A DNA stretch of 64,000 nucleotides, from the NCBI GenBank assembly GCA_947462535.1, contig CANHPN010000001.1:1-64000 (forward strand), read 5' to 3'. The notes below the pieces were generated by a model. That model was not told the DNA's origin and did no database searches. It worked only from the letters and a program-made list of their open reading frames with translations. Shown here in pieces: positions 2,648 through 62,652 of the stretch. Both the position numbers and the translations under genes were made by a program. The stretch comes from Akkermansiaceae bacterium (lineage in GTDB: Bacteria; Verrucomicrobiota; Verrucomicrobiia; Verrucomicrobiales; Akkermansiaceae). The stretch's first letter is position 1; the number at the start of each line of letters is the position of its first letter.

Positions 2648-2673
2648 TTTTAGGAGCGGTGAAAAATGAGGGC

Positions 2674-6075: not shown

Positions 6076-6331
6076 GGGGGTGGAGCGGGGTTATTGTTAG
6101 ACAGGGGGTGTGGGTTTTCACCAAAGAACTAGAGGAACCCATGAGAGAGAGTAAGAAATCCGATGCCGGGAATGGGCAAAAGTGATGCGTGAAGGGGGGT
6201 GGACGTGCCAACGCGAGCCAATGTCCGGCGGCAGAGCGGAGGAGAGAAACCTACGCAAGATGCAAAGGGCGCGATAACACGCTGACTCGCAGGGTAAAAG
6301 GTTGCCTTGCGGAAAACCGGGTAGTTTACGG

Positions 6332-6380
6332 CAAGCGGCAAGCGACAAGCGGCAAGCGGCAAGCGGCAAGCGGCAAGCGG
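6332..6380. repeat. Seven tandem copies of heptamer CAAGCGG
   Basis: Seven head-to-tail copies of CAAGCGG occupy these bases; the second copy ends in A instead of G. The repeat lies in the 483-bp gap between the PA14 gene and the 3' end of argF. A 7-bp unit gives repetitive translations in every frame (LAACR... on the minus strand), so the overlapping reading frames here are artefacts. The rest of the gap holds an AT-rich patch (about 6420-6480) and two hairpins near argF, with no gene that I can support. Copy number of such a tract is likely to vary between strains. Confidence 0.9.
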
Positions 6381-6497
6381 CGCGAAATTCATGACCGCCA
6401 CAAATGAAGTGCAAGCAATGCCGTCAAACAGAAAAACAGAATTTTATCAGAAATATTTAACGACTGCTAGTTTCATCTCATTGTCACTTCTTGGACT

Positions 6498-6545
6498 GGG
6501 CGCTCTGCTATCGCCCTACCTTGCGGGGCTGATGTGTCGCCCCGC
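6498..6545 (-). terminator. Two hairpins downstream of argF, possible terminator
   Basis: Two inverted repeats follow the argF stop on its own strand: GCGGGGC/GCCCCGC at 6523-6529 and 6539-6545, and GGGCG/CGCCC at 6498-6502 and 6512-6516. Both stems are perfect. There is no clear U-run, so intrinsic termination is uncertain, but the position suits transcript end formation for the argD-argF unit. Confidence 0.45.
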
Positions 6546-6558
6546 GTTGTGCGCGGCT

Positions 6559-7452
6559 TTAGCGGGCGATCGCGACGAGGACGGCCTTCTGCGCGTGGAG
6601 CCGGTTTTCGGCTTGCTGGAAAATCGTGCCGGCGTGGAGCTCGAGCACTTCGTTGCTGATCTCCTTGCCGCGGTAGGCGGGCAGGCAGTGGAGGACGATG
6701 TGGCCCGGAGCGGCGTGCGAGAGCAGGCCCGCATCGACCTGAAACCCGGCGAATTCCTTTTCCTTTTCCTGCTGGCCTTCCTGACCCATGGAAAGCCAGA
6801 CGTCGGTGTTGATCACATGGGCACCCTCGGCGGCGGCTTCGGGATCGGAGGTGATGATGACGTTCGGCGCGTCGAGGTCCGCCATGAAACCGCGTGGCGG
6901 CTGGCAGGATGGCGGCGAGGCGACGACGAGCTTGAAGCCGAGGCGTTTCGCCGCCCACATCCACGAGCGCGTCATGTTGGAAAACCCGTCGCCGATGAAC
7001 GCGACTTTCTTACCTTCCCAGGTGCCGAGCTTTTCCTGGATGGTCAGCAGGTCCGCTAGAATCTGGCAGGGATGCTCGTCGTCGGTGAGCGCGTTGATCG
7101 TCGGGATGCCGGAGAACTCCGCGAAGTCCACGACGTCCTGCTGGGCGAAGGTGCGGATGATTACGCCATGCACCATGCGGCCGAGCACGCGCGCGGTGTC
7201 CTTGATCGGCTCGCCGCGACCGAGCTGGATGTCGTTGCCAGATAGAAACATCGGGAACCCGCCGAGCTCGCGGATGCCGACCTCGAACGAGACGCGTGTG
7301 CGGGTGGATGACTTGGTGAAGATGAGGGCCCAGGTCTGTCCGGCAAGCGGCTGGCCTTCGCGGCCGCGCTGCAGTTTCAAATGCGCGGCGGAGTCCAGCA
7401 GGTGCTGGATTTCCTTGGCACTGAGTTGCTCGATGGAGAGTAGGTGGGTCAT
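6559..7452 (-). CDS. argF: Ornithine carbamoyltransferase
   Basis: This enzyme joins ornithine and carbamoyl phosphate to give citrulline in cytosolic arginine synthesis. At 297 residues it is near the usual 300-310. The carbamoyl-phosphate site SSTRTR is at about 48-53, the HPCQ motif at about 126-129, and the ornithine-site motif HCLPAYRGKEI starts near 255; all are intact. It starts with ATG 8 bp after a small membrane-protein gene and is followed by hairpins. It is the last gene of the argD - small ORF - argF unit. No ARG-box operator was recognised. Confidence 0.95.
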   Translation of the reverse strand: MTHLLSIEQLSAKEIQHLLDSAAHLKLQRGREGQPLAGQTWALIFTKSSTRTRVSFEVGIRELGGFPMFLSGNDIQLGRGEPIKDTARVLGRMVHGVIIRTFAQQDVVDFAEFSGIPTINALTDDEHPCQILADLLTIQEKLGTWEGKKVAFIGDGFSNMTRSWMWAAKRLGFKLVVASPPSCQPPRGFMADLDAPNVIITSDPEAAAEGAHVINTDVWLSMGQEGQQEKEKEFAGFQVDAGLLSHAAPGHIVLHCLPAYRGKEISNEVLELHAGTIFQQAENRLHAQKAVLVAIAR

Positions 7453-7460
7453 AAAAGTAG

Positions 7461-7796
7461 TTATGGTTTAAGATGCAGCTTGAGCTCCTCAAGACTCTGC
7501 GGAGCTGCCGATTCGAACAGTTCGCGGACTTTGGAGTATCGCGATGATTGATAAATCATGTAGAATACTAAGGTAAAAATCATCAGACCGAGGCCCCAGC
7601 CAGGAATTCCATCCCAATCCTGACTAAGAGCCACTCTCACCAGCATCAGGCTGAAAAACATCATGGAGAATGCGCCGTCTCGGAGTGCGTTGTGCTGTTT
7701 CCTTGCCAGTTGGAGGTCTGTGAGACTGTCGTCATTACTCCATTTTCTGGCCTTCGCAAGAAGGCTCTCTGCTTGTTCGATCGTTATCTTAGCCAT
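7461..7796 (-). CDS. Small two-helix membrane protein of unknown function
   Basis: A 111-residue protein with a charged helical N-terminus (MAKITIEQAESLLAKARKWS) and two hydrophobic segments, at about 42-60 and 66-83, followed by a short cytosolic tail. I do not recognise the family. It sits between argD (12 bp gap) and argF (8 bp gap), so it must be co-transcribed with them. Its DNA is clearly more AT-rich and uses more T/A-ending codons than either neighbour, which suggests later insertion into an arginine operon. No arginine function should be assumed. Confidence 0.65.
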   Translation of the reverse strand: MAKITIEQAESLLAKARKWSNDDSLTDLQLARKQHNALRDGAFSMMFFSLMLVRVALSQDWDGIPGWGLGLMIFTLVFYMIYQSSRYSKVRELFESAAPQSLEELKLHLKP

Positions 7797-7808
7797 GGTT
7801 CTATCGAA

Positions 7809-9059
7809 TCAGAATTCTGAGAGCACGGAGTGGATGATGGCCAGCGCCTCGTCCACCTCGTCGTCGGTGACGTTGAGCGGCGGTAGCAGGCGAAAGGTGT
7901 TCGGGCCGGCGGGCGGGACGATCAGGCCGCGCTCCATCAGCTTGTTCACCACCACGAGCGCGGGGGTTTTGCCTTCTGGAGTGGGGATGAACGCGGGGTC
8001 GAGGGCGATGCCTAGCAGCAGTCCCTGGCCACGGACTTCGGTGACGACGGGAAGGTTCCACGAGCGCACGGTTTCGCGGATGCGGACTTCCTGGAGGATC
8101 GCGTTCATCGGCAGTTCCTGCTCGCGGATTTCCTTGAGCACCGCGAGCGAGGCGGCGCAGACGAGCGGGTTGCCGCCGTAGGTCGATCCGTGCGAGCCGG
8201 GACCTAGCAGCGACGACACCGCGGTGCCGTCGTGGTTGATCGCGCGGTCGCTGAGCCAGAACGCGCCGATCGGCACGCCGCCGCCCATGCCTTTGGCCCA
8301 GGAAATGCCGTCGGGTTCGATTTCCGGGGCGATCATGCGCCAGGCCATCGCGTCGCCGCAGCGGCCGAAGCCGGCCTGGACCTCGTCGAAAAATAACAGC
8401 AGGTCGTGTTTCTCACAGATTCCGGAGACCGCGCGAATGAACTCCGGCGTCGCGCAGTTCACGCCGCCCTCGCCTTGGATCGGCTCCAGCAGGATGGCCG
8501 CGGTCTCCGGGCGGATCGCGGCCTCGAGCGCGGCGATGTCGTTGAACGGCAGATGACGGAAGCCGGGCAGCAGCGGATCGAAGCCTTCCTGGATTTTCGC
8601 CTGGCCGGTGGCGGCCATCGAGCCGAGCGTGCGGCCGTGGAAGGATTGTAAAAACGTGAGCACCTCGTAGCGCTGCGAGCCGTCGGGCTGCGGGCGCTTC
8701 AGGCCGAAGCGGCGGGCGGCCTTGATCAGTCCGTCGTTAGCCTCGGCACCGGAGTTGGAGAAAAAGATTTTCCCGGGAAGGCGGACGTGGTGCTCGTTGA
8801 TTTCCTCCGCCAGCTCGGCCTGGAGCGGGTGTTGATAGAGATTGGAAACATGCATCAGCTCACCCGCCTGGTGGCGGATCGCCTCGACCAGCTTGGGGTG
8901 GCAATGGCCGAGCGAGCACACGGCGATGCCCATGCAGAAATCCAGGTAGCTCTTCCCCGCGTCGTCCCAGAGCCGACAGCCGGCACCGCGCACGGGGACC
9001 AGCGGGAACCGACCGTAAGTGGGTAGCACGTGTTTCGCGTAGAGATCGGGAGTGGTCAT
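7809..9059 (-). CDS. argD: Acetylornithine aminotransferase, class III PLP enzyme
   Basis: A class III aminotransferase of 416 residues from ATG at 9059 (MTTPDLYAKHVLPTYGRFPL). A longer frame begins at a TTG at 9107, but the family's start matches the ATG. Seen: KIFFSNSGAEANDGLIKAAR (PLP phosphate site), LLFFDEVQAGFGRCG (Asp that binds the pyridine nitrogen), ISWAKGMGGGVPIGAF (PLP lysine, AKGMGGG), and GSHGSTYGGNPL. ArgD converts N-acetylglutamate semialdehyde and glutamate to N-acetylornithine. Its pairing with argF supports that over a GABA or ornithine aminotransferase. Confidence 0.92.
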   Translation of the reverse strand: MTTPDLYAKHVLPTYGRFPLVPVRGAGCRLWDDAGKSYLDFCMGIAVCSLGHCHPKLVEAIRHQAGELMHVSNLYQHPLQAELAEEINEHHVRLPGKIFFSNSGAEANDGLIKAARRFGLKRPQPDGSQRYEVLTFLQSFHGRTLGSMAATGQAKIQEGFDPLLPGFRHLPFNDIAALEAAIRPETAAILLEPIQGEGGVNCATPEFIRAVSGICEKHDLLLFFDEVQAGFGRCGDAMAWRMIAPEIEPDGISWAKGMGGGVPIGAFWLSDRAINHDGTAVSSLLGPGSHGSTYGGNPLVCAASLAVLKEIREQELPMNAILQEVRIRETVRSWNLPVVTEVRGQGLLLGIALDPAFIPTPEGKTPALVVVNKLMERGLIVPPAGPNTFRLLPPLNVTDDEVDEALAIIHSVLSEF

Positions 9060-45044: not shown

Positions 45045-47336
45045 ATGATTAAATACATTTACATTATTGCCGCTGCTTTTTGGCAGTTCGCTGAGCTTCG
45101 TGCCTTTTCCGCGACTTCGGTATCGCAGTTTGGCGTCACGTGGAGCTTTTCCCAGGACCGTCCCGTGGGTCAGTTTGCCAATGGCGATTGGTGGGTTGTC
45201 GGTCCGGTCACGATCACCGGGATCACCCCCGGAACCACCAATGATCAAAGCGGCACGATGGTTAACCCGTCAATAGGCAACGAAAACGGATGGGATTCCA
45301 GGATCAAATCGGGGATCTACTCTTCAAGTCTCAACATTGCCAAGAGTCTTCCCGCGTCGGTAGCGCCCGGGACGTCGGTCATGTCCAGCGTGAGTTTTGT
45401 GGACAACGCCACATTGGATAACCCGCAACTCGAATCGATCACGGTTTTGACAGTTCTGGGTTCCGCCGCCCCTGCCGGATCGTTTCGGCCTCCCTATCAG
45501 GGAAGTGACAAGTCTCTGAAATGGAATGTATCCCAGATGAATTTCGGCGTCTTGCGTCGTTTGGCTCCGACGGCCAGCACGCCGCTCTTGAGTAAGGTCG
45601 AAAGCTATTTCGAGCGACCATGGATTGAAAAGGAGGATGGATGGAGCGGAAGGTATTTCCACCCGAGGCTCAATCATCCATTTCAGGACCGTGGACTGGT
45701 GGGGTCATATGGTCGTGAAATGGCTCACACCGCCGCAGACGGTTTGCTCTCATTGCAGATCAACTATAGTGATGAACAGAAAAGAAAGTTGTTGATCCGT
45801 ATGGTCCAGGTTGGCATTGATATTTACGGAGCGGCGCGCCTGGGGGCAAGGTGGGCGGATGGAGGTGGACATAATCAGGGGCGCAAGATGCCGTTGCTCC
45901 TGGCCGGCATGGTATTGGGGGATTCAGACATGCTTAGGTATGCGGATACCGCGCAGAAAAAGATCTTTCAGGAGGACTTACAAACGTTCTATGTGACTTC
46001 TTCAGACGTCGCGCTGAAGCATATCGGCGTTAATAACTCTGCCGTTGAGCAGTATTCTCTTAGCGATATCGGGATGCCGGAATGGGGTTTTAATCATCAG
46101 GACCAACCGCAATACGACAACAAGCTTTGGGGGTGTCTTTATCGAAATGTAACAGGTCCATGCACGATGGGACACGTGCTCACTGCAATTTTGATGGGGG
46201 CCAAATCCAAATGGAACAATCCGGCATGCTTTGATTATTACGACCGGTTTTATGGAATCGAGTCGGGAAACGTTTCTACGGGGACAAACAGCATCCAACC
46301 ATTTGTTTCAGAAATGTGGAAAGCCTACAGGGGGGTGGCACCACCTGCCGTCACGATCTCGACCCCGGCGTTCACTCCGGATGGCGGCTCCTATGCCGAT
46401 GTTCAGAATGTCACGATCACCTGCGCCACTCCGGGGACATCCATCCGGTATACCACGAACGGAAGCGCTCCTACCGCAACCAGTGGAACAGTTTACGGCG
46501 GGCCGGTCGCGCTTGGCGTGGGAACCACTACACTCAGCGCCATCGCCTATGACGCAACCGGTGTGCAAAGCGCGGTGAGGTCCGCAAACTATGCTATTTC
46601 CGGAGTCAATCAGGTCGCCACTCCGACCGCCTCGCCATCGGGTGGGGCATTCCTGGTCTCCCAGTCGGTGTCCCTCGCCACACCGACTCTTGGCGCGACG
46701 ATCCGTTATACGGTCAACGGCGCGATTCCAGACGGGACCAGTCCGGTTTACGCCGGGCCCTTCACGGTGGCTTCGAACACCACAGTTCGGGCGATGGCCA
46801 TCAAGTCGGGCATGACAAACAGTCCGATCATGGACGCGGTTTTCACGATCGGCTCGGTCACCGTCGGTAATCAGTGGAGCAACCTGCCAATCTCGCCGCA
46901 GACCGGGGTCTTCAGTTTTTCAATCGATGCGGTGCCATCCGCAGCGGGAATTGACGCCGTCATGGGCCTCTCTACGAGCACCGCCGCGAATTTCAGCGAC
47001 CTGGCCGCGATCGTCCGCTTCTCGCCAAATGGCGTCATCGACGCCCGTGACGATGGAGCCTACGCAGCCGCGAACGTCCTGACCTATATGCCGGGAACGA
47101 AATACCACGTCGCCTTCGTCGTCGATGTGCCGAAACGTCGTTATTCGGCGACGGTCACGGTTCCCGGAGGGACGCCAGTGATCATTGCGAACAACTATGC
47201 ATTCCGTACCGAACAGGCCGCCGTTACCTCCATCACAAACCTTGCGATGTTCGCTACAAGCGGCTCCTCCACGTTCTCGGCACCCTTGGTTGGCAGCCGG
47301 CCTCCTCCGCCGCGCAATGTGAGAGTCGGCCAGTAA
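45045..47336 (+). CDS. Secreted glycan-associated protein with chitobiase C-terminal repeats
   Basis: A 763-residue exported protein (signal MIKYIYIIAAAFWQFAELRA). Residues about 20-440 have no family I recognise but are helical with WADGGGHNQGRKMPLLLAGM and many Trp, suggesting a glycan-active toroid. Two chitobiase/hexosaminidase C-terminal-like repeats follow (about 440-520 and 524-602; IRYTTNGSAPTATSGTVYGG; IRYTVNGAIPDGTSPVYAGP), and the last about 150 residues (SNLPISPQTGVFSFSIDAVP) resemble an end module of secreted lyases. A lyase or hydrolase that trims the locus's own polysaccharide is plausible but not shown. Confidence 0.75.
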   Translation: MIKYIYIIAAAFWQFAELRAFSATSVSQFGVTWSFSQDRPVGQFANGDWWVVGPVTITGITPGTTNDQSGTMVNPSIGNENGWDSRIKSGIYSSSLNIAKSLPASVAPGTSVMSSVSFVDNATLDNPQLESITVLTVLGSAAPAGSFRPPYQGSDKSLKWNVSQMNFGVLRRLAPTASTPLLSKVESYFERPWIEKEDGWSGRYFHPRLNHPFQDRGLVGSYGREMAHTAADGLLSLQINYSDEQKRKLLIRMVQVGIDIYGAARLGARWADGGGHNQGRKMPLLLAGMVLGDSDMLRYADTAQKKIFQEDLQTFYVTSSDVALKHIGVNNSAVEQYSLSDIGMPEWGFNHQDQPQYDNKLWGCLYRNVTGPCTMGHVLTAILMGAKSKWNNPACFDYYDRFYGIESGNVSTGTNSIQPFVSEMWKAYRGVAPPAVTISTPAFTPDGGSYADVQNVTITCATPGTSIRYTTNGSAPTATSGTVYGGPVALGVGTTTLSAIAYDATGVQSAVRSANYAISGVNQVATPTASPSGGAFLVSQSVSLATPTLGATIRYTVNGAIPDGTSPVYAGPFTVASNTTVRAMAIKSGMTNSPIMDAVFTIGSVTVGNQWSNLPISPQTGVFSFSIDAVPSAAGIDAVMGLSTSTAANFSDLAAIVRFSPNGVIDARDDGAYAAANVLTYMPGTKYHVAFVVDVPKRRYSATVTVPGGTPVIIANNYAFRTEQAAVTSITNLAMFATSGSSTFSAPLVGSRPPPPRNVRVGQ

Positions 47337-48905: not shown

Positions 48906-49913
48906 ATGATCATTGAAAAATCAGACGGGGTTTCGGTAATCATACCGACTTACAACCGGGAGAGTGTGGTGCAACGTGCCATCGACAGTGCTTTGGAACA
49001 GACTTACCGGAACCTCGAGGTGATCGTTGTCGATGACGGATCGACGGATGGGACAAGCGAAGTTCTTGGGAATTACGGCGAGCGGATTCGGGTGATTCGT
49101 CAAACGAACGCGGGACCATCGGCAGCTAGGAATCGCGGGGCCACCGAGGCCGCGGGCGAGGTGCTGGCGTTCTTGGACTCGGACGACAGGTGGCTTCCGG
49201 CAAAGATCGAACGCCAGATGGAGGTGTTACGGAGAGGTGGAGTTGGTATGAGCTGTTGTATTTGCAACGCAAGACTCCGGTCCTCCACCGGCAAAGAGAC
49301 CACTTCGTTTAAGGCAGCTGGCATCAAGAGTCCGCCGGCAGCGGGGATCTTGCGGAATCCGGCGCGGATTTTCGCTTCGAGATTCATGCTTTTCAACCAA
49401 GTGGTGGCGGTCCGGAAAAGCGCTTTTGAATATGTAGGCGGTTTTGACGAGGATCTCTGGCTGTTGGAGGATCACGATCTCGCGATCCGCCTCGCGGTGC
49501 TGGGTCCATGGGGAATCGTCGGGAATCCCATGGTGGAGAAATTCGAGGAGGACGACAGCCTGGGCGGTGCAGCACGCAAGGATCCGGCGAGCCATCTCGG
49601 GGCGATCGAGAGGGTGCTGACTTTGTTTCTAGCAAGCCGGGACGAGATCGCCCCGGCGCTCTACCACGAGGTGGAAAACGAACGCGAACGCTTGCTGCGG
49701 TCGATTCGCGGCCATCGCCTGGCAGGATCGGATTCGTTCGTTTCCGCTCAGTATGGCAGGTTGCTTCTATTGAGCCTTCGCCTGCGGAACGCGATTCGAA
49801 GAAGGTCTCCCGCTTGGCCACAGGCCGACATAGAAAGTCAGGATATCGGCGCGGTGGGCGACCCGGGCTTTTTGACAGGCACTGCCAACCGCATAGGTGG
49901 CGGGAACGCTTAG
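48906..49913 (+). CDS. GT2 glycosyltransferase
   Basis: From ATG at 48906 (MIIEKSDGVSVIIPTYNRES) 335 residues; an in-frame TTG at 48882 would add eight. The donor site VSVIIPTYNRE, VVDDGSTDGTSEVL, the GPSAARNRGATEAAG segment and the metal motif FLDSDDRWLP are intact; LWLLEDHDLAIRLAVLGPWG is the acceptor/catalytic ED(x)D segment. It adds one sugar to the lipid-linked glycan. The end overlaps the possible early start of the permease gene, but coding overlap is not needed. Confidence 0.9.
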   Translation: MIIEKSDGVSVIIPTYNRESVVQRAIDSALEQTYRNLEVIVVDDGSTDGTSEVLGNYGERIRVIRQTNAGPSAARNRGATEAAGEVLAFLDSDDRWLPAKIERQMEVLRRGGVGMSCCICNARLRSSTGKETTSFKAAGIKSPPAAGILRNPARIFASRFMLFNQVVAVRKSAFEYVGGFDEDLWLLEDHDLAIRLAVLGPWGIVGNPMVEKFEEDDSLGGAARKDPASHLGAIERVLTLFLASRDEIAPALYHEVENERERLLRSIRGHRLAGSDSFVSAQYGRLLLLSLRLRNAIRRRSPAWPQADIESQDIGAVGDPGFLTGTANRIGGGNA

Positions 49914-49944
49914 GATTGACAACCAACGTAATATCGTGAAGGAA

Positions 49945-50751
49945 ATGACCATTGAAGCGGGGCGCTCCGAGCGCCAGTATTGGCTGGATTTGTGGCGCTA
50001 TCGCGAGCTTTTCTACTTCCTGGCGTGGCGGGACATCCTGGTCCGTTACAAACAGACCGTCGTCGGGGTGGCCTGGGCGGTGATTCGGCCTTTGCTCACG
50101 ATGCTGGTCCTGACATTTATCTTCGGCAAGCTGGCGAAGATGGGTTCCGGCGGGGTGCCTTATCCGATTCTAGTGTTTTGCGGCATGCTGCCGTGGCAGT
50201 TCTTCGCCACCGCCTTCGCAGAGAGTGGCAACAGCCTCGTTTCCAACTCGGGGATGATCTCCAAGGTCTATTTTCCGCGGATGGTGGTTCCGGCCAGCAG
50301 CGTGATCACCAGCTTCGTGGACTTCCTGATTTCAGCGGTCCTGATGGCATTGATGATGGTTTACTATGGTTACCTCCCTGGCGCGTCGATCCTCATGCTG
50401 CCGTTCTTCGTGATGCTGGCCTTCGGCACGGCGTTCGGCACGGGGCTGTGGATTTCTGCGCTCATGGTGCGCTACCGTGACTTCCGCTTCATCGTTCCCT
50501 TCATCGTCCAGTTCGGATTGTATGTATCTCCGGTCGGGTTCAGCAGCAGCGTGGTTCCAAAAGAGTGGCGCTGGCTGTATTCCTTGAATCCGATGGTGGG
50601 CGTGATTGATGGCTTCCGGTGGACGATTTTAGGCGAGCGGAACCTCTACTGGCCGGGCTTGGGGATTTCGGTTGTAGCTGTGATATGGGTCATCATCTCC
50701 GGCATTTGGTACTTCCGGCGAACCGAACGAACGTTCGCTGACGTGATCTGA
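49945..50751 (+). CDS. wzm: Polysaccharide ABC exporter permease (Wzm)
   Basis: Wzm forms the membrane channel that exports finished polysaccharide chains. From ATG at 49945 (MTIEAGRSERQYWLDLWRYR) 268 residues; a GTG at 49897 would add 16. AAGGA lies just before the ATG. Six helices are visible, and motifs RYKQTVVGVAWAVIRPLLTM, VFCGMLPWQFFATAFAESGN and SKVYFPRMVVPASSVITSFV match ABC-2 polysaccharide exporters. It directly precedes wzt (24 bp). Chains exported this way are polymerised in the cytosol. Confidence 0.93.
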   Translation: MTIEAGRSERQYWLDLWRYRELFYFLAWRDILVRYKQTVVGVAWAVIRPLLTMLVLTFIFGKLAKMGSGGVPYPILVFCGMLPWQFFATAFAESGNSLVSNSGMISKVYFPRMVVPASSVITSFVDFLISAVLMALMMVYYGYLPGASILMLPFFVMLAFGTAFGTGLWISALMVRYRDFRFIVPFIVQFGLYVSPVGFSSSVVPKEWRWLYSLNPMVGVIDGFRWTILGERNLYWPGLGISVVAVIWVIISGIWYFRRTERTFADVI

Positions 50752-50775
50752 TCGGCTCGATTGACTAGAAAGTAG

Positions 50776-52128
50776 ATGTTAAATTTAGTGATAATGAGTA
50801 ATTCAATTATTTCCGTCGAAAATCTATCGAAACTTTACCTGATTGGCCGCCAAGCTGAGAAAGGGGATGGCTTGCGGCATGTCTTGGAGCGGGCGATGCG
50901 CTCGCCATTTGGCTGGATGGGTTCCGGGAAGGACGGAAAGCAGGCGAAGACTAAGGAGTTTTGGGCGCTTCGCGACCTCCACTTCGAGGTAAATCAAGGC
51001 GAGGTCGTGGGCATCATCGGGCGCAACGGCGCGGGCAAATCTACTCTGCTCAAGATCCTGAGCCGGATCACCGAGCCCACCCAGGGCCGGATCCGCCTGC
51101 GAGGCCGTGTGGCCAGCCTTCTTGAGGTCGGGACCGGTTTTCATCCGGAGCTCACGGGTCGCGAAAACATTTATTTGAATGGCGCGATCCTTGGAATGGG
51201 AAGGGTGGAGATCAAACGCAAGTTTGACGAGATCGTCGCCTTTGCGGGGCTCGAAACGTTCCTTGACACGCCGGTGAAGCGCTACAGCAGCGGAATGTAT
51301 GTCCGCCTGGGATTCGCCGTCGCGGCCCACCTGGAACCGGAAATTCTAATAGTCGATGAAGTGCTTGCTGTGGGGGATGCTGAGTTCCAGAAGAAATGCC
51401 TACGTAAAATGGGTGATGTTGCGCACGGTGGGCGAACGGTGTTGTTCGTGTCGCACAATATGCAAGCGGTGACCCGCCTGTGCCCGCGTTGTATCCTGCT
51501 CAACGAAGGACGGATCAAACTCGACGGACCGTCGGCCCAGGTGGCGAATGCCTATTTGAATTCGGGTGTCTCGACCGCAGCCGCCCGAGAGTGGCCCGAC
51601 ATCTCCACGGCTCCTGGCGACGAGGTCGCGCGATTCCGCGCGGTCCGGGTGCGCTCGGGCGGGGGCGGGGTGATTGAGTCGATCGATGCCCGGGAGCCGG
51701 TGGGGATCGAACTGGAATTTGAGATTCTGACACCCGGCCGAAGATTCCTGCCGCACTTCGCGCTGTGGAATCAGGATGGCACTGTGCTGTTTGTGGCGGT
51801 CGATGTGGACCCTGAATGGAGGGGCCACCGCCGGCCGCCGGGTCGGTATGTTAGCACAGGGTGGATTCCCGGCAACATGCTGGCGGAAGGCTTGATCTAC
51901 GTTCAAGCGGTGCTCATTTCACTGGATCCGGAAACGGTTCACGCCATCGTGGAGGAGGCGGTCGCGTTCCGGGTACTGGACGACATGACGGCCACCACCA
52001 CGGCGAGAGGCGACTATCCTAACCCGATACCTGGGGTCTTGCGGCCGTTGCTGGAGTGGACGACTTCCTTCGTGCCGCGACAAGGCGACACGGAAAACGC
52101 AGCGCGGCCCGTTAGTATCGCTGTATAG
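50776..52128 (+). CDS. wzt: Polysaccharide ABC exporter ATPase with C-terminal Wzt extension
   Basis: Wzt powers Wzm. The 450-residue protein has Walker A GRNGAGKSTLLKILSRITEP, signature YSSGMYVRLGFAVAAHLEPE (variant of LSGGQ) and Walker B EILIVDEVLAVGDAEFQKKC, HDNMQ-like SHNMQAVTRL. Residues about 265-450 form a beta-sandwich extension (FRAVRVRSGGGGVIESIDAR; HFALWNQDGTVLFVAVDVDP) like the domain that in E. coli O9a/O8 Wzt binds the capped chain end. That implies a terminal modification such as a methyl group, and a methyltransferase (40644) is nearby. ATG at 50794 is an alternative start. Confidence 0.94.
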   Translation: MLNLVIMSNSIISVENLSKLYLIGRQAEKGDGLRHVLERAMRSPFGWMGSGKDGKQAKTKEFWALRDLHFEVNQGEVVGIIGRNGAGKSTLLKILSRITEPTQGRIRLRGRVASLLEVGTGFHPELTGRENIYLNGAILGMGRVEIKRKFDEIVAFAGLETFLDTPVKRYSSGMYVRLGFAVAAHLEPEILIVDEVLAVGDAEFQKKCLRKMGDVAHGGRTVLFVSHNMQAVTRLCPRCILLNEGRIKLDGPSAQVANAYLNSGVSTAAAREWPDISTAPGDEVARFRAVRVRSGGGGVIESIDAREPVGIELEFEILTPGRRFLPHFALWNQDGTVLFVAVDVDPEWRGHRRPPGRYVSTGWIPGNMLAEGLIYVQAVLISLDPETVHAIVEEAVAFRVLDDMTATTTARGDYPNPIPGVLRPLLEWTTSFVPRQGDTENAARPVSIAV

Positions 52129-52940: not shown

Positions 52941-53873
52941 ATGACAAAGCTGCAAGAACCAAAATATGTGTATATGGGCGGTGGTCTTCGCTCATGGGAT
53001 GAGGCGACCCTCCACATTGGCTGCGAAGCAGTCACGCGAAGCTTGAATGTCTTCGAGGGCCTCAAGGGCTATTGGCAAGCAGCCGGACCGTTCGGAATTG
53101 TGCAGCTTCGCTACCATTATGAGCGACTCCGGCGCTCCGCCCGGTTGCTTCATATCCCTTTTGATACCACTTTTTATGAGTATCAGGGAGCGCTCGCCCT
53201 ACTCGTCGAAGCGCTGCTCGAGCCGGATCGAGATATGTGGTTTCGCACGACTCTCTACGCCGTTGAGGGACACTGGGGAGAAGACACAGTCGCCGATCTG
53301 GTAATTACCGGGTACCATCAGGAGATGCGGGCTCCCGATCCCATCGCCCTTGGCGTGAGCACCTGGCGGCGGAGCCCCGACACATCTCTTCCGGCACGCA
53401 TCAAGGCAGGGAGCAACTATCAGGTTGCGCGGCTGGCTCGCATGGAAGGCCGGGTTCTCGGGTGTCAGGATATGGTTCTCCTCAACCATTCCGGTCGCGT
53501 CGCCGAGGCTACCGGATCATGTATTGTGATGGTTCGCGAGGGAGTCATTTACACTCCACCCGCGACAGAGGGAGCCCTTGAAAGTATTACGTTGGATATT
53601 GTCGAGGCTCTGGCCAAGTCGATGGATATTCCCTTCGCCCGGCGCCCCATTGACCGAACCGAGCTTTTGGTGGCCGACGAGATCGCCCTCTGTGGCACTC
53701 TCGCCGAGTTGATCCTTGTCACGTCGATCGAAGGGCTGCCGCTCAACGGCGAGGCACCGTTATTGCGCGCTCTTCAAGCACGATACTTCCGCGCTGTCCG
53801 CAACATCGAGCCCCATCCGTTCGTCGAGCTATCAGTCCTAAACTCCAGGAAAGCGGCCGGCCCGGGAGCGTGA
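52941..53873 (+). CDS. Class IV aminotransferase (branched-chain type)
   Basis: A 310-residue PLP class IV enzyme: RSLNVFEGLKGYWQAAGPFG near 33-52 (like SVFEGIRAY), YHYERLRRSARLL, the Schiff-base segment ARIKAGSNYQVARLARMEGR (Lys), VAEATGSCIVMVREGVIYTP (like EGTGxNIF) and ITLDIVEALAK. Members transaminate branched-chain amino acids or D-amino acids, or act as lyases. Inside an EPS locus it may make an amino acid or keto acid that the next gene, an Eis-like acetyltransferase, attaches or modifies. That is a context inference. Confidence 0.85.
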   Translation: MTKLQEPKYVYMGGGLRSWDEATLHIGCEAVTRSLNVFEGLKGYWQAAGPFGIVQLRYHYERLRRSARLLHIPFDTTFYEYQGALALLVEALLEPDRDMWFRTTLYAVEGHWGEDTVADLVITGYHQEMRAPDPIALGVSTWRRSPDTSLPARIKAGSNYQVARLARMEGRVLGCQDMVLLNHSGRVAEATGSCIVMVREGVIYTPPATEGALESITLDIVEALAKSMDIPFARRPIDRTELLVADEIALCGTLAELILVTSIEGLPLNGEAPLLRALQARYFRAVRNIEPHPFVELSVLNSRKAAGPGA

Positions 53874-53927
53874 CGGTGCGATGTTGTCTGAAAAGCCCGA
53901 TGGAACGAACCCACAGCGGAACCGGCC

Positions 53928-55265
53928 ATGCCAACTCATTCTATTCCTAGCCAGATGCTGGTTAGTTGCGGCGATAACCTCGCTCTTCGGCTTGCAGGTC
54001 CAGATGACTTGGCGGCGTTGATCGACTTCAACACCCGGATTTTCGACGAGCGGATCACCGATTGGGCCGCTGATTTGGCAGGCGGCCGGCATCCGACGGT
54101 CCAAACGTGTGATTTCACCGTGGTGGAGGATCTCCGGGACAAGAAAATCGTCTCCTCGGTGTGCCTCATTTCGCAAACCTGGCAGTATGACGGCATTCCG
54201 TTTCAGGTTGGGCGTCCTGAACTCGTGGCCACCGACCCGGATTACCGGCGACGGGGATTGGTGCGAAAGCAGTTTGAAGCCATCCATGCCCGCAGTGCGG
54301 CCAAGGGCGAACTGTTGCAGGTGATCACGGGCGTTGACTGGTTTTACCGCCAGTTTGGCTATGAAATGGGAGTCAAACTATGGGGCAGCCGATGCGTGAA
54401 CGGAATGGATGTTCCAAAATTGAAGGAAGGCGAAACCGAAGTGTATCACTTGCGACCAGCGACCTCCGGGGACCACGAATTCATTCGGGATGTTTACGAT
54501 CAGGCGGCTCGCGGCCAGTTGTTTGCGGCATTGCGTTCGCCCGAGGAATGGGATTACGAGTTCACCGGACGCTCCAAGGCAAATACCCGGCGTCGTGAGT
54601 GGCTGGTTCTAGCGGACAGCGAAGGGGAGCGCTTGGGTTATGTACAATACCTGGCCTGCCTTCCGTTACCGCACCTGCCGCTGTTTCGCATCTCTCAAGT
54701 CGAGCTCAAAGTGGGCGTGGGATATCTCAATGTGATGCCAAGCTTGTTGCGTGGACTGTGGGAGAAGGCCCAGGCCATGTATGCGAGCGGTGAGCTTCCA
54801 TGCAGGGAAATCCACGGATTGGAGTTGGCTTTGGAGCGGGATCATCCGTTGTACCGCGCCATCCCGAAGAACCTGGTCCGCGACCTCAAGCCGAGTCCTT
54901 GGTATATTCGCATTCCGGACATGATCGCCTTCTTGAGCAAGATCCGGCCCGCACTTGAAGGGCATCTTGTCGGCACGGTAGCGGAGGGATACAACGGCGA
55001 ATTGAAGCTGAATTTTTTCCGGTCCGGGATACAGTTGGTCTTCGATAGTGGCCGGATTTCGGCGATCGAGAAATGGCAGCCCGGCGAGGCGTGGCAAGGG
55101 GACGCGCGTTTTCCCGACGCCTCATTCTTGGAGTTGGTCTGCGGTTGGCGACGGTTCGAGGAGATGAGCGAGAGTTTCGCGGATTGCTGGGGAACCCACG
55201 AGGCGGCGGTGTTGCTGGACTGCCTGTTTCCTCCGTTCCACGGGAAGGTCTGGGTATTGGCTTAA
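53928..55265 (+). CDS. Eis-like GNAT acetyltransferase
   Basis: A 445-residue protein with an N-terminal GNAT domain: NLALRLAGPDDLAALIDFNT, ELVATDPDYRRRGLVRKQFE (acetyl-CoA R-R-x-G motif) and WFYRQFGYEMGVKLWGS. A second GNAT-like half (about 160-320; VYHLRPATSGDHEFIRDVYD) and a C-terminal SCP2-like region (about 340-445; YNGELKLNFFRSGIQLVFDS) give the Eis-type three-part layout. Eis acylates aminoglycosides and protein lysines. Here, 54 bp downstream of the class IV aminotransferase, an amino-group acylation in the glycan pathway is a possible role. Confidence 0.8.
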   Translation: MPTHSIPSQMLVSCGDNLALRLAGPDDLAALIDFNTRIFDERITDWAADLAGGRHPTVQTCDFTVVEDLRDKKIVSSVCLISQTWQYDGIPFQVGRPELVATDPDYRRRGLVRKQFEAIHARSAAKGELLQVITGVDWFYRQFGYEMGVKLWGSRCVNGMDVPKLKEGETEVYHLRPATSGDHEFIRDVYDQAARGQLFAALRSPEEWDYEFTGRSKANTRRREWLVLADSEGERLGYVQYLACLPLPHLPLFRISQVELKVGVGYLNVMPSLLRGLWEKAQAMYASGELPCREIHGLELALERDHPLYRAIPKNLVRDLKPSPWYIRIPDMIAFLSKIRPALEGHLVGTVAEGYNGELKLNFFRSGIQLVFDSGRISAIEKWQPGEAWQGDARFPDASFLELVCGWRRFEEMSESFADCWGTHEAAVLLDCLFPPFHGKVWVLA

Positions 55266-56340: not shown

Positions 56341-59300
56341 ATGGTTCAGTCACGACTAACGAATATGTTTAAAGTTTTACTCGTTGTCACGGGTCTCGTC
56401 ACGGCGCTCGTGTGCTGGGGAATTTCGGGTAGAGTCATTGGCTCCATCGCCTCCGAGAATGCCCTGACCGGAAACTTGCCGAGCGAATGGGACGTCAATG
56501 GAATCGGAGATCCGAGCATCCAGGGCTTTGCCACTGACTTCAGCGTGAACTGCGGCCAGACGGTGCAGTTCAAGATCAATACCACTGCTACTGCTTACTG
56601 GATTGACATCTATCGGCTCGGGTATTACGGCGGCCGCGGGGCGCGCAAGGTGGCTACGATCAATCCGTCGGCCAGCCTGCCTCAGAACCAGCCGGCATTC
56701 GTCAGTGACGCGGCGACGGGCCTGGTCGATTGCGGCAACTGGGCGGTTTCCGCCAGTTGGGCGGTGCCGTCCACCGCCACTTCGGGAGTTTACATCGCAC
56801 GGCCGGTCCGCACCGACACCGGCGGCGCGAGCCACATTGTGTTCATCGTGCGCGACGATGCGGGACAATCCGATTTCCTGTTCCAAACTGCCGACACGAC
56901 CTGGCAGGCTTACAACAACTACGGCGGCATTAACCTGTATCGCTACCGCACGACTCCACCGTACCGGGCTTACAAGGTCAGCTATAACCGTCCGTTCAAC
57001 AATCGTGGCGCGACTCAATTCGCCGAACGGGAGAGCTTTTTGTTCAACTCCGAGTATCCGATGATTCGCTGGATGGAGGCTAACGGCTACAACGTCAGTT
57101 ATGCCTCCGGAATAGACACGGATCGCCTCGGATCGGCGGCGTTGCTCTCCCACAAGGTCTTTCTTTCCGTCGGTCATGACGAATATTGGTCCGGTCAGCA
57201 GCGTGCGAACGTGGAGGTTGCCCGCGCCAGTGGGGTACATCTGGGCTTTTTCAGCGCTAACGAGATGTTTTGGAAAACGCGCTGGGAAAACAGCATCGCC
57301 GGCACTAGCACGGCCTACCGGACCTTGGTTTGCTATAAGGAGACCCGGGCGAATGCCAAAATCGATCCATCCACCGAGTGGACAGGCACCTGGCGGGATC
57401 CGCGCTTCAGTCCGCCGTCTGACGGTGGCCGGCCTGAAAACGCGGTGACGGGCCAATTCTGGGTGGTGGACGCATTTCGCAATGATCCGATCGATATCTC
57501 CTCCAGCGAGGGCAAGATGCGGTTTTGGCGTAACACGTCGATTGCCGCGCTTGCTGCCGGCCAGAGCGCCCAGTTGCCGGTCGGCGTGCTGGGCTTCGAG
57601 TGGAATGAGGTTAGAGACAATGGATTCCTGCCGCCCGGGTTGGGTCGCATGTCCACGACGACCTTTGCGGTGGACGGCTACATGCAGGACTATGGATCGA
57701 CAGTTGCCCCAGGCATTGCCACTCACAGTCTGACGCTCTATCGGCATGGCAGCGGGGCGTTGGTCTTCGGCGCGGGCACCATCCAGTGGCCGTGGGGGCT
57801 GGACGCGACCCACGATTTTGCGGGGACGCCTACGGATGTCCGGATGCAACAGGCGACGGTGAACCTGTTCGCGGACATGGGAGTTCAGCCGGCGACTTTG
57901 CAAGTGGGCTTGCTTGCCGCGACCGCGTCCACCGACACCATCGCCCCCACGTCGGTGATTCAGATGTCGCCTGCCGCGACGCTCCCTGCGGGCTATCCGG
58001 CGACGATCTTTGGGACTGCCACCGATAGTGGCGGAGGAGTGCCGGCAGGCGTGGAGTTTTCGTACGACGGAGGCGTGACCTGGCATTTGGCAACCGGTTC
58101 GTCGAACTGGAGCGGCACGTGGACGCCATACGAACCAGGCGTAGTCACCTTAAAAAGCCGCGCGGTGGACGACAGTGGCATGATTGAGAATCCAGGCCCC
58201 GGTATCAACGCCACGGTCGTTGGGGGCTTGATCAACGGCAGTTTCGAATCCGATTTCACGGGTTGGACGGCAACCGGAAATGTTGTCACCGGGCCCGCGA
58301 ATGGCGTGGCGTCCGATGGGAGTAAAATCGTCGCATTCAACGGTAGCGATCTGGTCCCCGACGGGGTGATTTCCCAGACTTTTGCCACAACAGCCGGACA
58401 GACCTACACGCTTACTTTTGATCAGGGGGTTTTAGCCTACAACAGGAACTCGCAAACCCTGCAGGTGACGGTCACCGGCAGCGGCAGCGGCAGCCTGCTT
58501 TCGCAATCCGTGACGATCAACGGCCTGGGTGGCGGAGCTATCAGTTGGGTGCCACGGAGTTTCACCTTCGTGGCTAACAACGACTCGTCCACCCTGACCT
58601 TGCGCGACCAATCCGCGACGACCCGCAGTCTCGACATGCTCCTCGACAAGGTGCGGGTGATCGCGGCCACACTGACTCAAGCCGCCACACCGACCTTCAA
58701 TCCAGCAGGTGGAAATTACAGCGCCGCGCAGTCGGTGACGCTTTCGAGCACGAGCCCCGGAGCCGCTATCTATTACACTACTAACGGCAGCACGCCGACC
58801 ACGTTATCGACGTTCTACACCACGCCGGTCACCGTCGCGGCCACGACCACGATCAAGGCAATCGCCGTCATGCCAGGGTTACTCAACAGTGCGGTGGCCA
58901 GCGCCACTTACACGATTCAATCGGCTCTCCCCGAGGCCCCCGGCAACCTGACGGCGACGGCGGCCTCGGCGAACCGAATCGATCTCGTTTGGACGGACAA
59001 TTCTAACAACGAAACGGAATTCAAGATCGAACGGAAATCCGGTGCTGGTGGCACCTACGCGCAAATCGCCACGGTTGGTGCCAATGAGGCCAGTTATGCC
59101 AACACCGGCCTGACTGCGGGCGCGACCTATTTCTACCGGGTGCGTGCGACCAACGCCATCGCGGATTCCGCCTATTCGCCCGAGGCCAGCGCCACAACTG
59201 CCGCCGCGCCCGCGCTGTTGACCAATGGCAGCTTTGAATCCAACTTCACCGGATGGACCGTGACCGGGAACGCGTTCATCGAAACGACGCCCAACTATAC

Positions 59301-62300
59301 GCCGACCGACGGGGTGAAACTGGCCACATTCAATGGGACCAGCACCAGTGACGTGCCACCCACCGGAGTGCTCTCACAAACCATCACGACGGCACCCGGA
59401 ACGACCTACACGCTGGCGTTTGACATGGGCGTGATTGGCGCGGCCGTTATGCAGCAAAAACTCCGGGTCACGGTTGATGGAACAGGTAATCTCCTGACAC
59501 AAGATGTCGCGAAGACCAGCAACGGAACTTTCACCTCCCAATGGACTGCGAATAGCTCCACCTTCGTGGCCAACAGCACGACGTCAACCCTGACCTTCCG
59601 CGACATCTCCACGGTCACCGACGGCATCGATGCCTTACTCGACAACGTGCGGGTGACCGGACCATCTAGTGGCCAGCCGGTAGTGGCGAATGATTCCGCC
59701 ACCATTCATTCCAGCCAGAAAGTTCGGCTCGCGGTGCTCGCTAACGATTCCGGCGCGATCGATCCGAACACGGTGGAGATCGTTTCCCCGCCAACGACCG
59801 GCACCGCCACGGTAGAATCTTCCGGTGAAATCCTCTACACCCATCCAGGGACAAGCATGGAGCCGGTGAGCTTCACCTACCGGGTTTCGGGCACCGGCGG
59901 GCCATCGGCGGTCGCCACGGTCAGTATCACGATTTCCGACGCGCTGCGCATTTCTAACAACACTTTCAACATGCCTGCCGAGCCGCCACCGACGGCGGTG
60001 CAGGTGGTGCAGGCCTACCCGGGCGTGACTTTCACGAACCCGATCTGCTTCGTCAGCCCGCCGGGCGACACGAAACGCCTCTTCGTCTGCGAACTCGGCG
60101 GCAAGATCAAGGTCATCCCCGATGTGACGGCGGCTAACCCGACATCCTCGCTGCTGCTCGACCTGGCCCAAGTCATCACGACACCACCCCGGATTCCGGC
60201 CGAGACCTGGGTTCCGGGTTCCGATGGCGAGGCGGGTCTGCTAGGCCTCGCGTTCCATCCGGACTATGCGACGAACGGTTACTTCTACGTGGCCTATATG
60301 GTCGTGAAAGCCACGGACTCCTCCGTTTGGTATCACAGGCTCTCGCGCTTCACCGTGCCCGCCGCGCAGATCGGTCAGCCAACTCCGGTGGCGGATTCTT
60401 CTTCGGAAAGGATCCTTATCGAGCAACGAGACCGCGATTTCGGCCTCAACGGCGGGGACCTGCATTTCGGCGCGGACGGCTATCTATACTGGCCGATCGG
60501 GGACGAAGGTTATACTGATGGATTGACCAACGATTCGCAGCGCATTGACCTGAATTTCTTCGGTGCGATGCTGCGGATCGATGTGGATAAGAAGCCCGGA
60601 AACCTGGAGCCAAACGCCCACCCGAATCCCGCCGCAGCGGGGCTGGGACTCAGCTCGGTAAACGCCATTCCGCGCGATGAAATCCCGGTCGGCTCGGGAC
60701 AATTCTTCGCCCGCTACAGCATTCCGATCGACAACCCGTTCGTCTCTACCAGCCAGGGCGGCACTTGGAACGGCACCTTCAATGGCAGTGCGGTCACCTC
60801 TGCGGACCGGCCGTATGTCCGCTCGGAATTCTGGGCGGTCGGGCTGCGCAGCCCGTGGCGCTTTTCCATCGATGCACCGACGGGGGACATCTGGCTCGGC
60901 GATGTTGGGCTGCACACTTATGAGGAGCTGGACATCATCACCAAAGCTGGGAACTACGGATGGGGGTTCCGGGAGGGAGCCCATGCCAGACCGTTTACTC
61001 CACCATCGGGCTTCACCTCGACCGATCCGCTTTACGAATACGCCCACAACGACCAGCCCGGTGATTCGACCTTCAAGGGCAACTCGATCATCGGCGGAGT
61101 GGTCTATCGCGGCAGCCGGTTTGCCAGCCTCACGGGCGCTTACATTTTCGGCGACCATATCTCCGGGCACATCTGGGCGCTGACGCGTCCTGGTGGAGTG
61201 ACCACCGTGCAGCGGATCGCCGGGCAAGCCGGGGTGGCCAATTTTGGTGTGGATCCGTCCAATGGCGATGTCCTGCTTTCCGACTACTTTGGCGGACGCA
61301 TCATGCGGATTGTGACGACGACACCGACCACCGATTTTCCGACCACGCTCAGCGCGACCGGGCTTTTCGCTGACCTCACCGACCTTTCTCCCGCGCCGGG
61401 GCTATTGCCCTACACGCCGAATCTTGCGTTCTGGAGCGACTACGCGGTCAAACGCCGCTGGTTTTCCATCCCAGACGCGATCAGCAAAATGACGTGGTCC
61501 CGCGACGCTTCGTGGACGTTCCCGACCGGCCAGATCTGGGTGAAACATTTCGATCTGGAAAGCGAGCGCGGTAATCCGGCATCGCCCAAGAAACGGATAG
61601 AAACCCGCGTGCTCGTGAAAAATGCCAGCGGCGGTTACGGCGTGAGCTATCGCTGGAACGAAGCAGGCACCGAGGCCACGCTTGTGGAAGACGGCGGCGA
61701 GGATGTCGCCGTCAATATCACCGTCGGCGGTACGCCATACACCCAACAGTGGAACATCCCCAGCCGCTCGCAATGCATTGGCTGCCACTCGCCGCAGGCC
61801 GGGCACGCGTTGTCGTTCAACACCCGTCAGCTCAATTTAACAAACACGATCAACGGCTTCACCGGCAACCAGATCGATCTGTTGCACAACCACGGCTATT
61901 TCTCAAACATTCCGGAATCCTCCAACCTCCTGCCGCGGCATCTGCGTCCGGATGAACCCCAATACCCACTCGAAGCCCGGGTGCGTTCTTATCTGGCAGT
62001 GAACTGCTCCTACTGCCACGCCGGCGCTGCGGGCACCGCTCCCCCGGCCTGGGATGGCCGTCACGAACTGACGCTGGATCAAACCGGCCTCATCAACGGC
62101 GCCACCAACCAAGCCGGCGACCCGTTCCGACTCATCGTCCCCGGTGACACCACACACTCGGTGGCGCTGCAACGGATGGCAGGCACAGGCGGCTTCACCC
62201 GGATGCCGCCGCTGGGGAGCCATGAAATCGATCCTGTGAACATCCAGTTGGTCACGGATTGGATCAACCAATCGCTGCCCGGTCGCGTCACCTACGACCA

Positions 62301-62652
62301 GTGGAGATTGGAGACGTTCGCTTCCGCAAGCTCCCCGGAAGGAGAGCCGGGCGAGGATCCGGACAGTGACGGCTTTTCCAACCACGCTGAATTCCTCGCT
62401 GGCACGCTCGCATGGAACGGCAGCAGTTTCCTGATTCCGGGTGTGAGCTTGTCGGACTCGAACGTGTTCCTCAATTTCACCATTCCCGCGAACCGTTCCG
62501 TGCAAGTCGAGTCATCGGGAAACCTTGCCGACTGGTCGTTGTGGGATATTCCCGCGAACAACGGCATAGCGCTGCCCGGCGGCAACACCACCTTCAGCGG
62601 CCCCGGCACCTATTCTAACCAATTCTACCGTCTCCTAATCCGGGAGCGCTGA
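56341..62652 (+). CDS. 2103-residue secreted fusion: dimethylformamidase-like, lectin-like, PQQ sugar dehydrogenase-like, di-heme cytochrome
   Basis: A giant exported protein with an N-terminal signal/anchor (residues about 8-30). Modules by position: about 40-520 resembles the N,N-dimethylformamidase beta subunit (VGHDEYWSGQQRANVEVARA); about 630-777 and 960-1110 are two similar lectin-like modules (NGSFESxFTGWT opening); about 780-860 chitobiase C-terminal-like; about 864-957 FN3; about 1113-1200 Ig-like; about 1220-1660 glucose/sorbosone dehydrogenase-type propeller (GEAGLLGLAFHPDYATNGYF); about 1664-1985 SO_2930-type cytochrome with heme sites C1812-I-G-C-H and C1889-S-Y-C-H; then an Asp-rich tail. 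This could oxidise a sugar and pass electrons to its own hemes. The role is inferred. Confidence 0.85.
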   Translation: MVQSRLTNMFKVLLVVTGLVTALVCWGISGRVIGSIASENALTGNLPSEWDVNGIGDPSIQGFATDFSVNCGQTVQFKINTTATAYWIDIYRLGYYGGRGARKVATINPSASLPQNQPAFVSDAATGLVDCGNWAVSASWAVPSTATSGVYIARPVRTDTGGASHIVFIVRDDAGQSDFLFQTADTTWQAYNNYGGINLYRYRTTPPYRAYKVSYNRPFNNRGATQFAERESFLFNSEYPMIRWMEANGYNVSYASGIDTDRLGSAALLSHKVFLSVGHDEYWSGQQRANVEVARASGVHLGFFSANEMFWKTRWENSIAGTSTAYRTLVCYKETRANAKIDPSTEWTGTWRDPRFSPPSDGGRPENAVTGQFWVVDAFRNDPIDISSSEGKMRFWRNTSIAALAAGQSAQLPVGVLGFEWNEVRDNGFLPPGLGRMSTTTFAVDGYMQDYGSTVAPGIATHSLTLYRHGSGALVFGAGTIQWPWGLDATHDFAGTPTDVRMQQATVNLFADMGVQPATLQVGLLAATASTDTIAPTSVIQMSPAATLPAGYPATIFGTATDSGGGVPAGVEFSYDGGVTWHLATGSSNWSGTWTPYEPGVVTLKSRAVDDSGMIENPGPGINATVVGGLINGSFESDFTGWTATGNVVTGPANGVASDGSKIVAFNGSDLVPDGVISQTFATTAGQTYTLTFDQGVLAYNRNSQTLQVTVTGSGSGSLLSQSVTINGLGGGAISWVPRSFTFVANNDSSTLTLRDQSATTRSLDMLLDKVRVIAATLTQAATPTFNPAGGNYSAAQSVTLSSTSPGAAIYYTTNGSTPTTLSTFYTTPVTVAATTTIKAIAVMPGLLNSAVASATYTIQSALPEAPGNLTATAASANRIDLVWTDNSNNETEFKIERKSGAGGTYAQIATVGANEASYANTGLTAGATYFYRVRATNAIADSAYSPEASATTAAAPALLTNGSFESNFTGWTVTGNAFIETTPNYTPTDGVKLATFNGTSTSDVPPTGVLSQTITTAPGTTYTLAFDMGVIGAAVMQQKLRVTVDGTGNLLTQDVAKTSNGTFTSQWTANSSTFVANSTTSTLTFRDISTVTDGIDALLDNVRVTGPSSGQPVVANDSATIHSSQKVRLAVLANDSGAIDPNTVEIVSPPTTGTATVESSGEILYTHPGTSMEPVSFTYRVSGTGGPSAVATVSITISDALRISNNTFNMPAEPPPTAVQVVQAYPGVTFTNPICFVSPPGDTKRLFVCELGGKIKVIPDVTAANPTSSLLLDLAQVITTPPRIPAETWVPGSDGEAGLLGLAFHPDYATNGYFYVAYMVVKATDSSVWYHRLSRFTVPAAQIGQPTPVADSSSERILIEQRDRDFGLNGGDLHFGADGYLYWPIGDEGYTDGLTNDSQRIDLNFFGAMLRIDVDKKPGNLEPNAHPNPAAAGLGLSSVNAIPRDEIPVGSGQFFARYSIPIDNPFVSTSQGGTWNGTFNGSAVTSADRPYVRSEFWAVGLRSPWRFSIDAPTGDIWLGDVGLHTYEELDIITKAGNYGWGFREGAHARPFTPPSGFTSTDPLYEYAHNDQPGDSTFKGNSIIGGVVYRGSRFASLTGAYIFGDHISGHIWALTRPGGVTTVQRIAGQAGVANFGVDPSNGDVLLSDYFGGRIMRIVTTTPTTDFPTTLSATGLFADLTDLSPAPGLLPYTPNLAFWSDYAVKRRWFSIPDAISKMTWSRDASWTFPTGQIWVKHFDLESERGNPASPKKRIETRVLVKNASGGYGVSYRWNEAGTEATLVEDGGEDVAVNITVGGTPYTQQWNIPSRSQCIGCHSPQAGHALSFNTRQLNLTNTINGFTGNQIDLLHNHGYFSNIPESSNLLPRHLRPDEPQYPLEARVRSYLAVNCSYCHAGAAGTAPPAWDGRHELTLDQTGLINGATNQAGDPFRLIVPGDTTHSVALQRMAGTGGFTRMPPLGSHEIDPVNIQLVTDWINQSLPGRVTYDQWRLETFASASSPEGEPGEDPDSDGFSNHAEFLAGTLAWNGSSFLIPGVSLSDSNVFLNFTIPANRSVQVESSGNLADWSLWDIPANNGIALPGGNTTFSGPGTYSNQFYRLLIRER

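Follow-up and report, generated by a model that had tools for sequence, protein, structure and literature searches.

What does a bacterial protein do that joins, in one chain, a module resembling N,N-dimethylformamidase (DMFase), several carbohydrate-binding-type modules, a GSDH-type propeller and a di-heme cytochrome, and that is encoded within an exopolysaccharide (EPS) gene cluster? The question is raised by a reading frame of 2103 codons in an Akkermansiaceae genome (GenBank assembly GCA_947462535.1), located in a window of 64,000 nucleotides, the whole stretch of DNA analyzed here (contig CANHPN010000001.1, positions 1 to 64,000). An initial annotation had proposed an undescribed, self-wired extracellular sugar oxidase, possibly acting on the polysaccharide made by the cluster. 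The chain is instead a one-off mosaic and not a proven self-wired sugar oxidase, because its sugar-dehydrogenase-like part lacks the usual catalytic residue. Its new element is a foreign, intact DMFase-fold module, joined to a GSDH-di-heme unit inside an EPS cluster.

The frame runs from an ATG start without internal stop, as first annotated, and is found once in the genome, as a single match along its entire length. The modules initially listed were confirmed, with DMFA2_C, CHB_HEX_C_1, fn3, Big_9 and GSDH exceeding their Pfam cut-offs and CxxCH motifs present at residues 1812 and 1889, while the two similar lectin-like modules proved to be DUF642/choice-of-anchor-C domains. Judging from its N-terminus, the protein is apparently secreted.

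The N-terminal DMFase-like module

The DMFA2_C profile (PF20254) covers residues 88-489 of the chain (340 bits). The AlphaFold model of residues 36-630, with a mean predicted local distance difference test score (pLDDT) of 83.6 and a predicted template modelling score (pTM) of 0.89, matches the fold of 8huy (Z 31.6, root mean square deviation (rmsd) 3.0, 414 residues aligned) and that of 6lvb (Z 30.5). In Paracoccus DMFase, iron is bound by Y399, Y440 and E521, and catalysis depends on H519 (PMC7686228). Since H279, E281, Y191, and Y200 or Y202 of the window chain align with these catalytic and iron residues, the predicted two-Tyr, one-Glu iron site and the catalytic His of the module are complete. 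Few changes are found among 141 near-invariant positions of the family.

The GSDH-type propeller and di-heme cytochrome

The GSDH profile (PF07995) matches in two stretches, the better at residues 1285-1424, with 70.3 bits against a cut-off of 25. In the AlphaFold model of residues 1200-2000, which includes propeller and cytochrome (mean pLDDT 86.5, pTM 0.86), the propeller matches 3a9g (Z 37.6, rmsd 2.6, 324 residues aligned) and sGDH (Z about 31). Both catalytic-module assignments of the initial annotation, DMFase-like and GSDH, thus stand at the level of profile and of predicted fold.

The active site of the propeller is altered. The best candidate for the catalytic base of sGDH is His144 (PMC6881810), placed in the alignments via the segment K142-D143-H144 located in 1c9u. 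The aligned residue of the window chain is Leu1369, at a position where all 48 other relatives have His (32/32 in the model alignment). Arg1503 (sGDH R228) is kept and is invariant among relatives, and Ser1504 replaces Asx (sGDH N229) at a position where five relatives also have Ser and four have His. Alignment to the IRDV of 2g8s found the RxRDV motif absent both from the window chain and from the whole GSDH-cytochrome family; in sGDH this motif provides the anchors R406/R408 for the carboxylates of pyrroloquinoline quinone (PQQ). Alterations affect 3 of 69 near-invariant GSDH positions, compared with 1 of 70 in the cytochrome of the same chain. In the 73 genomes of the genus there is no PqqE above cut-off, which is all that can be said of this enzyme, because its profile also matches generic radical-SAM proteins everywhere (controls 14/14). 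PQQ can be taken up. The closest solved sequence relative of the GSDH part (window 60010-61310) is the human hedgehog-interacting protein (HHIP) and no bacterial enzyme. Leu1369, the family-wide lack of RxRDV and the PqqE result make a sugar-oxidase function doubtful in the window copy, and its residues suggest a propeller that is degenerate with respect to PQQ sugar dehydrogenase function, with at most weak or altered dehydrogenase activity. Elsewhere in the genome there is a second, canonical GSDH protein of 649 codons (L133:583-2529, G000:C16:19603-20592; PF07995 E 4e-119), present although no PqqE passes the cut-off.

The region initially described as SO_2930-like matches TIGR03806 (NCBIfam) with full-length profile coverage (E 6.3e-56), but its score of 189.8 bits lies below the curated cut-off of 313.3, as does that of the relative L006 (205.6 bits). 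Pfam gives a weak match to Cytochrome_CBB3 at residues 1886-1975, below cut-off. H1736 and M1955 are invariant in 33/33 rows and are candidate distal heme ligands. A PDB sequence search with the di-heme part found nothing, and the fold-search rows for residues 1200-2000 covered the propeller only. With both heme sites retained, the di-heme part may still shuttle electrons.

Separate histories of the two halves

The C-terminal half of the chain (about residues 1108-2102) has many relatives in Verrucomicrobiota, about 49-61% identical, with propeller and cytochrome in one chain, and it conforms to the single-chain layout of this Verrucomicrobiota fusion family (Big_9, GSDH, cytochrome, C-terminal domain). 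In both long relatives scanned with Pfam (L006, L010) the front end is Laminin_G_3. On the Akkermansiaceae contig L010 two GSDH-cytochrome genes stand in tandem (1-3426 and 3441-8951), and neighbouring copies also occur in the genome G049.

For the N-terminal module (residues 36-630), the best-matching relatives come from Actinobacteria, Acidobacteria and a Methylibium, at 50-64% identity. A maximum-likelihood tree places it within a clade of 37 rows (support 100/100) from Actinobacteria, Acidobacteria and Proteobacteria, apart from other Verrucomicrobiota DMFA2 proteins. Beyond its own genome, the module has no match at E<=1e-50 among 387 genomes of the order and none at E<=1e-60 among 388 genomes of the phylum. 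DMFA2_C itself occurs in 13 of the 388 phylum genomes, where the frames outside the window have 393-793 codons. A scan of 84,980 species genomes, limited to six peptide patterns, found no full-length homologue, and the DMFA-GSDH-cytochrome fusion was not found in any other genome searched; the fusion is a singleton. Near a DMFA-clade gene of Microbispora, a DUF4082 domain occurs in an ice-binding-like protein (L034:5697-7817), and in Arthrobacter (L041) this domain is fused to the DMFA module.

The polysaccharide locus and its counterparts

The frame is embedded in a same-strand cluster that contains Wzz, a sugar transferase, glycosyltransferases, a weak Wzy-like match, Wzm/Wzt (49897-52128, named from translations) and a G1P cytidylyltransferase, and that continues downstream; the initial placement in an EPS locus is thereby borne out. 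The cluster also holds a branched-chain-type aminotransferase and, after it, a GNAT acetyltransferase (window 52941-55265), which suggests N-acylated residues in the polysaccharide product. Further downstream in the same cluster lies a second Wzm/Wzt-like ABC exporter pair (L121:14929-16985, G000:C1:76929-78985), named from translations only.

Neighbourhoods were probed with the EPS proteins of the window and with DegT, WecG and carbamoyltransferase proteins from flanks, and flanks were searched with Pfam. Polysaccharide genes stand beside DMFA-clade genes in 19 of 34 loci (12 with a DegT amino-sugar aminotransferase, 15 with a glycosyltransferase or WcaJ). By contrast, they are found at none of 24 loci of GSDH-cytochrome genes and at none of 23 fn3 control loci. 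The polysaccharide link therefore belongs to the DMFase-like module, which the proposed oxidase mechanism leaves unused, and not to the GSDH-cytochrome unit; other EPS loci of Verrucomicrobiota do not show the same order of modules. Because the Big_9-GSDH-di-heme unit is common in Verrucomicrobiota, already fused, and elsewhere lies outside polysaccharide loci, the wired propeller is not new and has no EPS link, and the claim of an undescribed system does not hold for it.

Proposed function and alternatives

The explanation that we favour, tentatively and at a little less than an even chance, is a secreted, carbohydrate-binding, iron-dependent amidohydrolase for EPS N-acyl groups that is joined in one chain to a degenerate propeller and a di-heme carrier. 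The mosaic protein would be exported as part of an EPS/O-antigen-like polysaccharide cluster and anchored on carbohydrate by its DUF642, CHB_HEX and FN3 modules, and its N-terminal module, an Fe(III) amidohydrolase of the two-Tyr, one-Glu type, would cleave N-acyl or amide groups of the polysaccharide of the cluster. As the tree suggests, this module was probably acquired horizontally from an EPS-associated family of Actinobacteria, Acidobacteria and Proteobacteria, and was presumably joined as a foreign module to the resident GSDH-di-heme unit, which normally carries a LamG-type front end. The propeller would be degenerate, while the di-heme part may still pass electrons. A more far-reaching version, possible but on balance doubtful, envisages single-chain polysaccharide remodelling, with a DMFase-fold iron amidase N-deacylating exopolysaccharide beside a di-heme carrier, and in addition an EPS-associated, multi-phylum clade of extracellular DMFase-fold polysaccharide amidases, for which no described function was found.

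Several points weigh against the favoured explanation. The DMFase of Paracoccus has an alpha2beta2 make-up, and its large subunit was reported to be inactive on its own (PMC7686228). The number of independent cases is smaller than 19/34, because three DegT probes were taken from loci that were counted and because several of the actinobacterial DMFA loci are near relatives, leaving about five independent lineages. The sharing of a locus by polysaccharide genes and the module need not mean a common substrate. With regard to the propeller, Leu is frequent at the His144 position in fungal AA12 proteins (PMC6881810), and the H1369L replacement takes a single base (CAC to CTC), which might be erroneous or have arisen recently.

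A somewhat unlikely alternative is that the chain arose by neutral domain shuffling among secreted repeat proteins and serves as an adhesin or matrix protein in which both enzyme modules are idle. It accords with the recurrence of the linker modules in other shuffled proteins of the same genus, with the singleton status of the fusion and with the eroded GSDH active site, but it leaves the intact DMFA active site, with few of its near-invariant positions changed, the intact heme sites and the maintenance of so long an open frame unaccounted for.

The initially proposed PQQ sugar oxidase, which would oxidise EPS and pass electrons through its own two hemes, is unlikely. The modules, their union in one chain and the cluster are all real: the GSDH fold is clear, Arg1503 is invariant, both hemes and their candidate distal ligands are conserved, cytochrome-assembly proteins are present in the genome, and the joint model suggests a fixed arrangement of propeller and cytochrome. 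It is the sugar oxidation that is in doubt, given a Leu found in the window chain only, Ser at the Asn229 position, the family-wide absence of RxRDV, the PqqE result, an animal receptor protein as the nearest solved sequence relative, and GSDH-cytochrome relatives that have no EPS link. The oxidase retains some probability because Leu occurs in AA12 proteins and the exchange of one base may have happened recently or be erroneous, although modular heme-bearing AA12 members retain His at a higher rate (PMC6881810).

A coupled pathway, with the amidase releasing monomers or amino groups and the wired propeller then oxidising what results, is quite improbable. On an Acidobacterium gp6 contig (L056:5984-17466), a DMFA2_C-LamG gene lies immediately upstream of a separate LamG-Big_5-GSDH-PKD-Calx-beta gene of the same strand, near glycosyltransferase, DegT-like, epimerase and carbamoyltransferase genes. 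This pair is a lead for a joint DMFA-GSDH function, yet it is a single case among the 34 loci, and its GSDH protein retains the His yet lacks any CxxCH; the window chain carries Leu1369.

A chimera of assembly or binning, which a module foreign to the phylum and a unique fusion might suggest, is very improbable: GC is uniform, as is third-position GC (GC3; 0.71-0.75 across all modules), making a recent chimera or misassembly less likely, the frame is open through all modules, the contig measures 195,714 bp, completeness of the genome is 95% at 0.03% contamination, and the linker modules resemble proteins of the same genus. Misassembly was rejected on composition, contig size and open frame, and with both profiles matching, neither of the two findings that would have undermined the initial annotation was made.

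Relation to known systems

The N-terminal module has its fold in common with the large subunit of N,N-dimethylformamidase (6lvb) and with N-acetyl-(R)-beta-phenylalanine acylase (8huy) over about 415 residues (Z about 31), and with DMFase also the iron site and catalytic His, but it is 18% identical to them, is apparently exported, is fused to carbohydrate-binding and redox modules, and lies in a polysaccharide locus. The C-terminal half resembles the PQQ sugar dehydrogenases (sGDH 1cq1, Asd 2g8s, 3a9g) in its six-bladed propeller and Arg228 equivalent, and differs from them in the residues discussed above. It is a direct member (residues 1108-2102) of the LamG-Big_9-GSDH-di-heme proteins of Verrucomicrobiota typified by L006 and L010, which, unlike the window chain, keep the His, carry Laminin_G_3 in front (two scanned) and lie outside EPS loci. 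With the SO2930 di-heme family (TIGR03806) it shares the full-length match and two CxxCH motifs, at a score below the family cut-off. Kinship with the hedgehog-interacting protein, an animal protein with no heme domain, is one of propeller fold only.

The fungal quinohemoprotein pyranose dehydrogenase CcPDH (AA8-AA12-CBM1) is an existing example of a secreted, self-wired sugar dehydrogenase that combines a propeller with a carbohydrate-binding module. It is a works-like analogue with propeller dehydrogenase, heme and carbohydrate-binding module in a single chain, but it has a b-type heme at its N-terminus, keeps the catalytic His363 and has no amidase module (PMC6881789, PMC4332668). No report on GSDH in Verrucomicrobia or Planctomycetes, or on DMFase and exopolysaccharide, was found within the limited literature searched. 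A potentially general point is the DMFase-fold clade that keeps its iron site and occurs, in Actinobacteria, Acidobacteria and other groups, alongside glycosyltransferase and amino-sugar genes; should its members be polysaccharide amidases, a function would be assigned to an unexplained group, and EPS-modifying enzymes would gain a new class. The case also illustrates how a striking multi-domain chain can mislead, since its wired propeller is a common part that has lost a catalytic residue in the window copy.

Features of the reading frame

Table 1. Features of the mosaic chain, with positions in the window
Feature	Position	Strand	Basis
Whole reading frame	56341..62652	+	2103 aa, ATG start; open frame of 2107 codons without stop
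Hydrophobic N-terminal segment, likely signal peptide/export signal	56365..56433	+	Read from translation
DMFase-like (DMFA2_C) amidohydrolase module, residues 36-489	56446..57807	+	PF20254 E 2.3e-101, fold match
Tyr191, aligned with Paracoccus DMFase Fe ligand Y399	56911..56913	+	Profile alignment to 6lvb, family conservation
Tyr200/Tyr202, region of Fe ligand Y440 (one of two)	56938..56946	+	Profile alignment to 6lvb, family conservation
His279-Asp-Glu281, on H519-P-E521 (catalytic His and Fe ligand)	57175..57183	+	Profile alignment to 6lvb, family conservation
Ig-like domain, sulfite-oxidase-dimerisation type, residues ~528-627	57922..58221	+	Profile match; fold match to sulfite oxidases, Z ~14
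First DUF642/choice-of-anchor-C module, approx. residues 630-780	58228..58680	+	Second DUF642 Pfam stretch; limits approximate
CHB_HEX_C_1 (chitobiase C-terminal) module, residues 788-853	58702..58899	+	Pfam
fn3 (fibronectin type III) module, residues 866-950	58936..59190	+	Pfam
Second DUF642 module, best stretch 966-1103	59236..59649	+	Pfam, NCBIfam
Big_9 Ig-like module, residues 1112-1197; start of widespread Verrucomicrobiota unit	59674..59931	+	Pfam
GSDH-type six-bladed propeller, about residues 1215-1660	59983..61320	+	Pfam, AlphaFold model, 3a9g fold match
Leu1369 (codon CTC), at place of sGDH catalytic base His144	60445..60447	+	Alignments with relatives and sGDH
SO2930-like di-heme cytochrome region, residues 1667-1977	61339..62271	+	TIGR03806
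CxxCH heme site 1, residues 1812-1816	61774..61788	+	Invariant in 33/33
CxxCH heme site 2, residues 1889-1893	62005..62019	+	Invariant in 33/33
C-terminal domain common to relatives, no Pfam match; possible sorting domain	62296..62649	+	Alignments of relatives

Elsewhere in the same cluster, a 763-aa protein (window 45045-47336) contains two CHB_HEX_C_1/Fn3_assoc repeats with 44-46% identity to residues 772-862 of the large chain.

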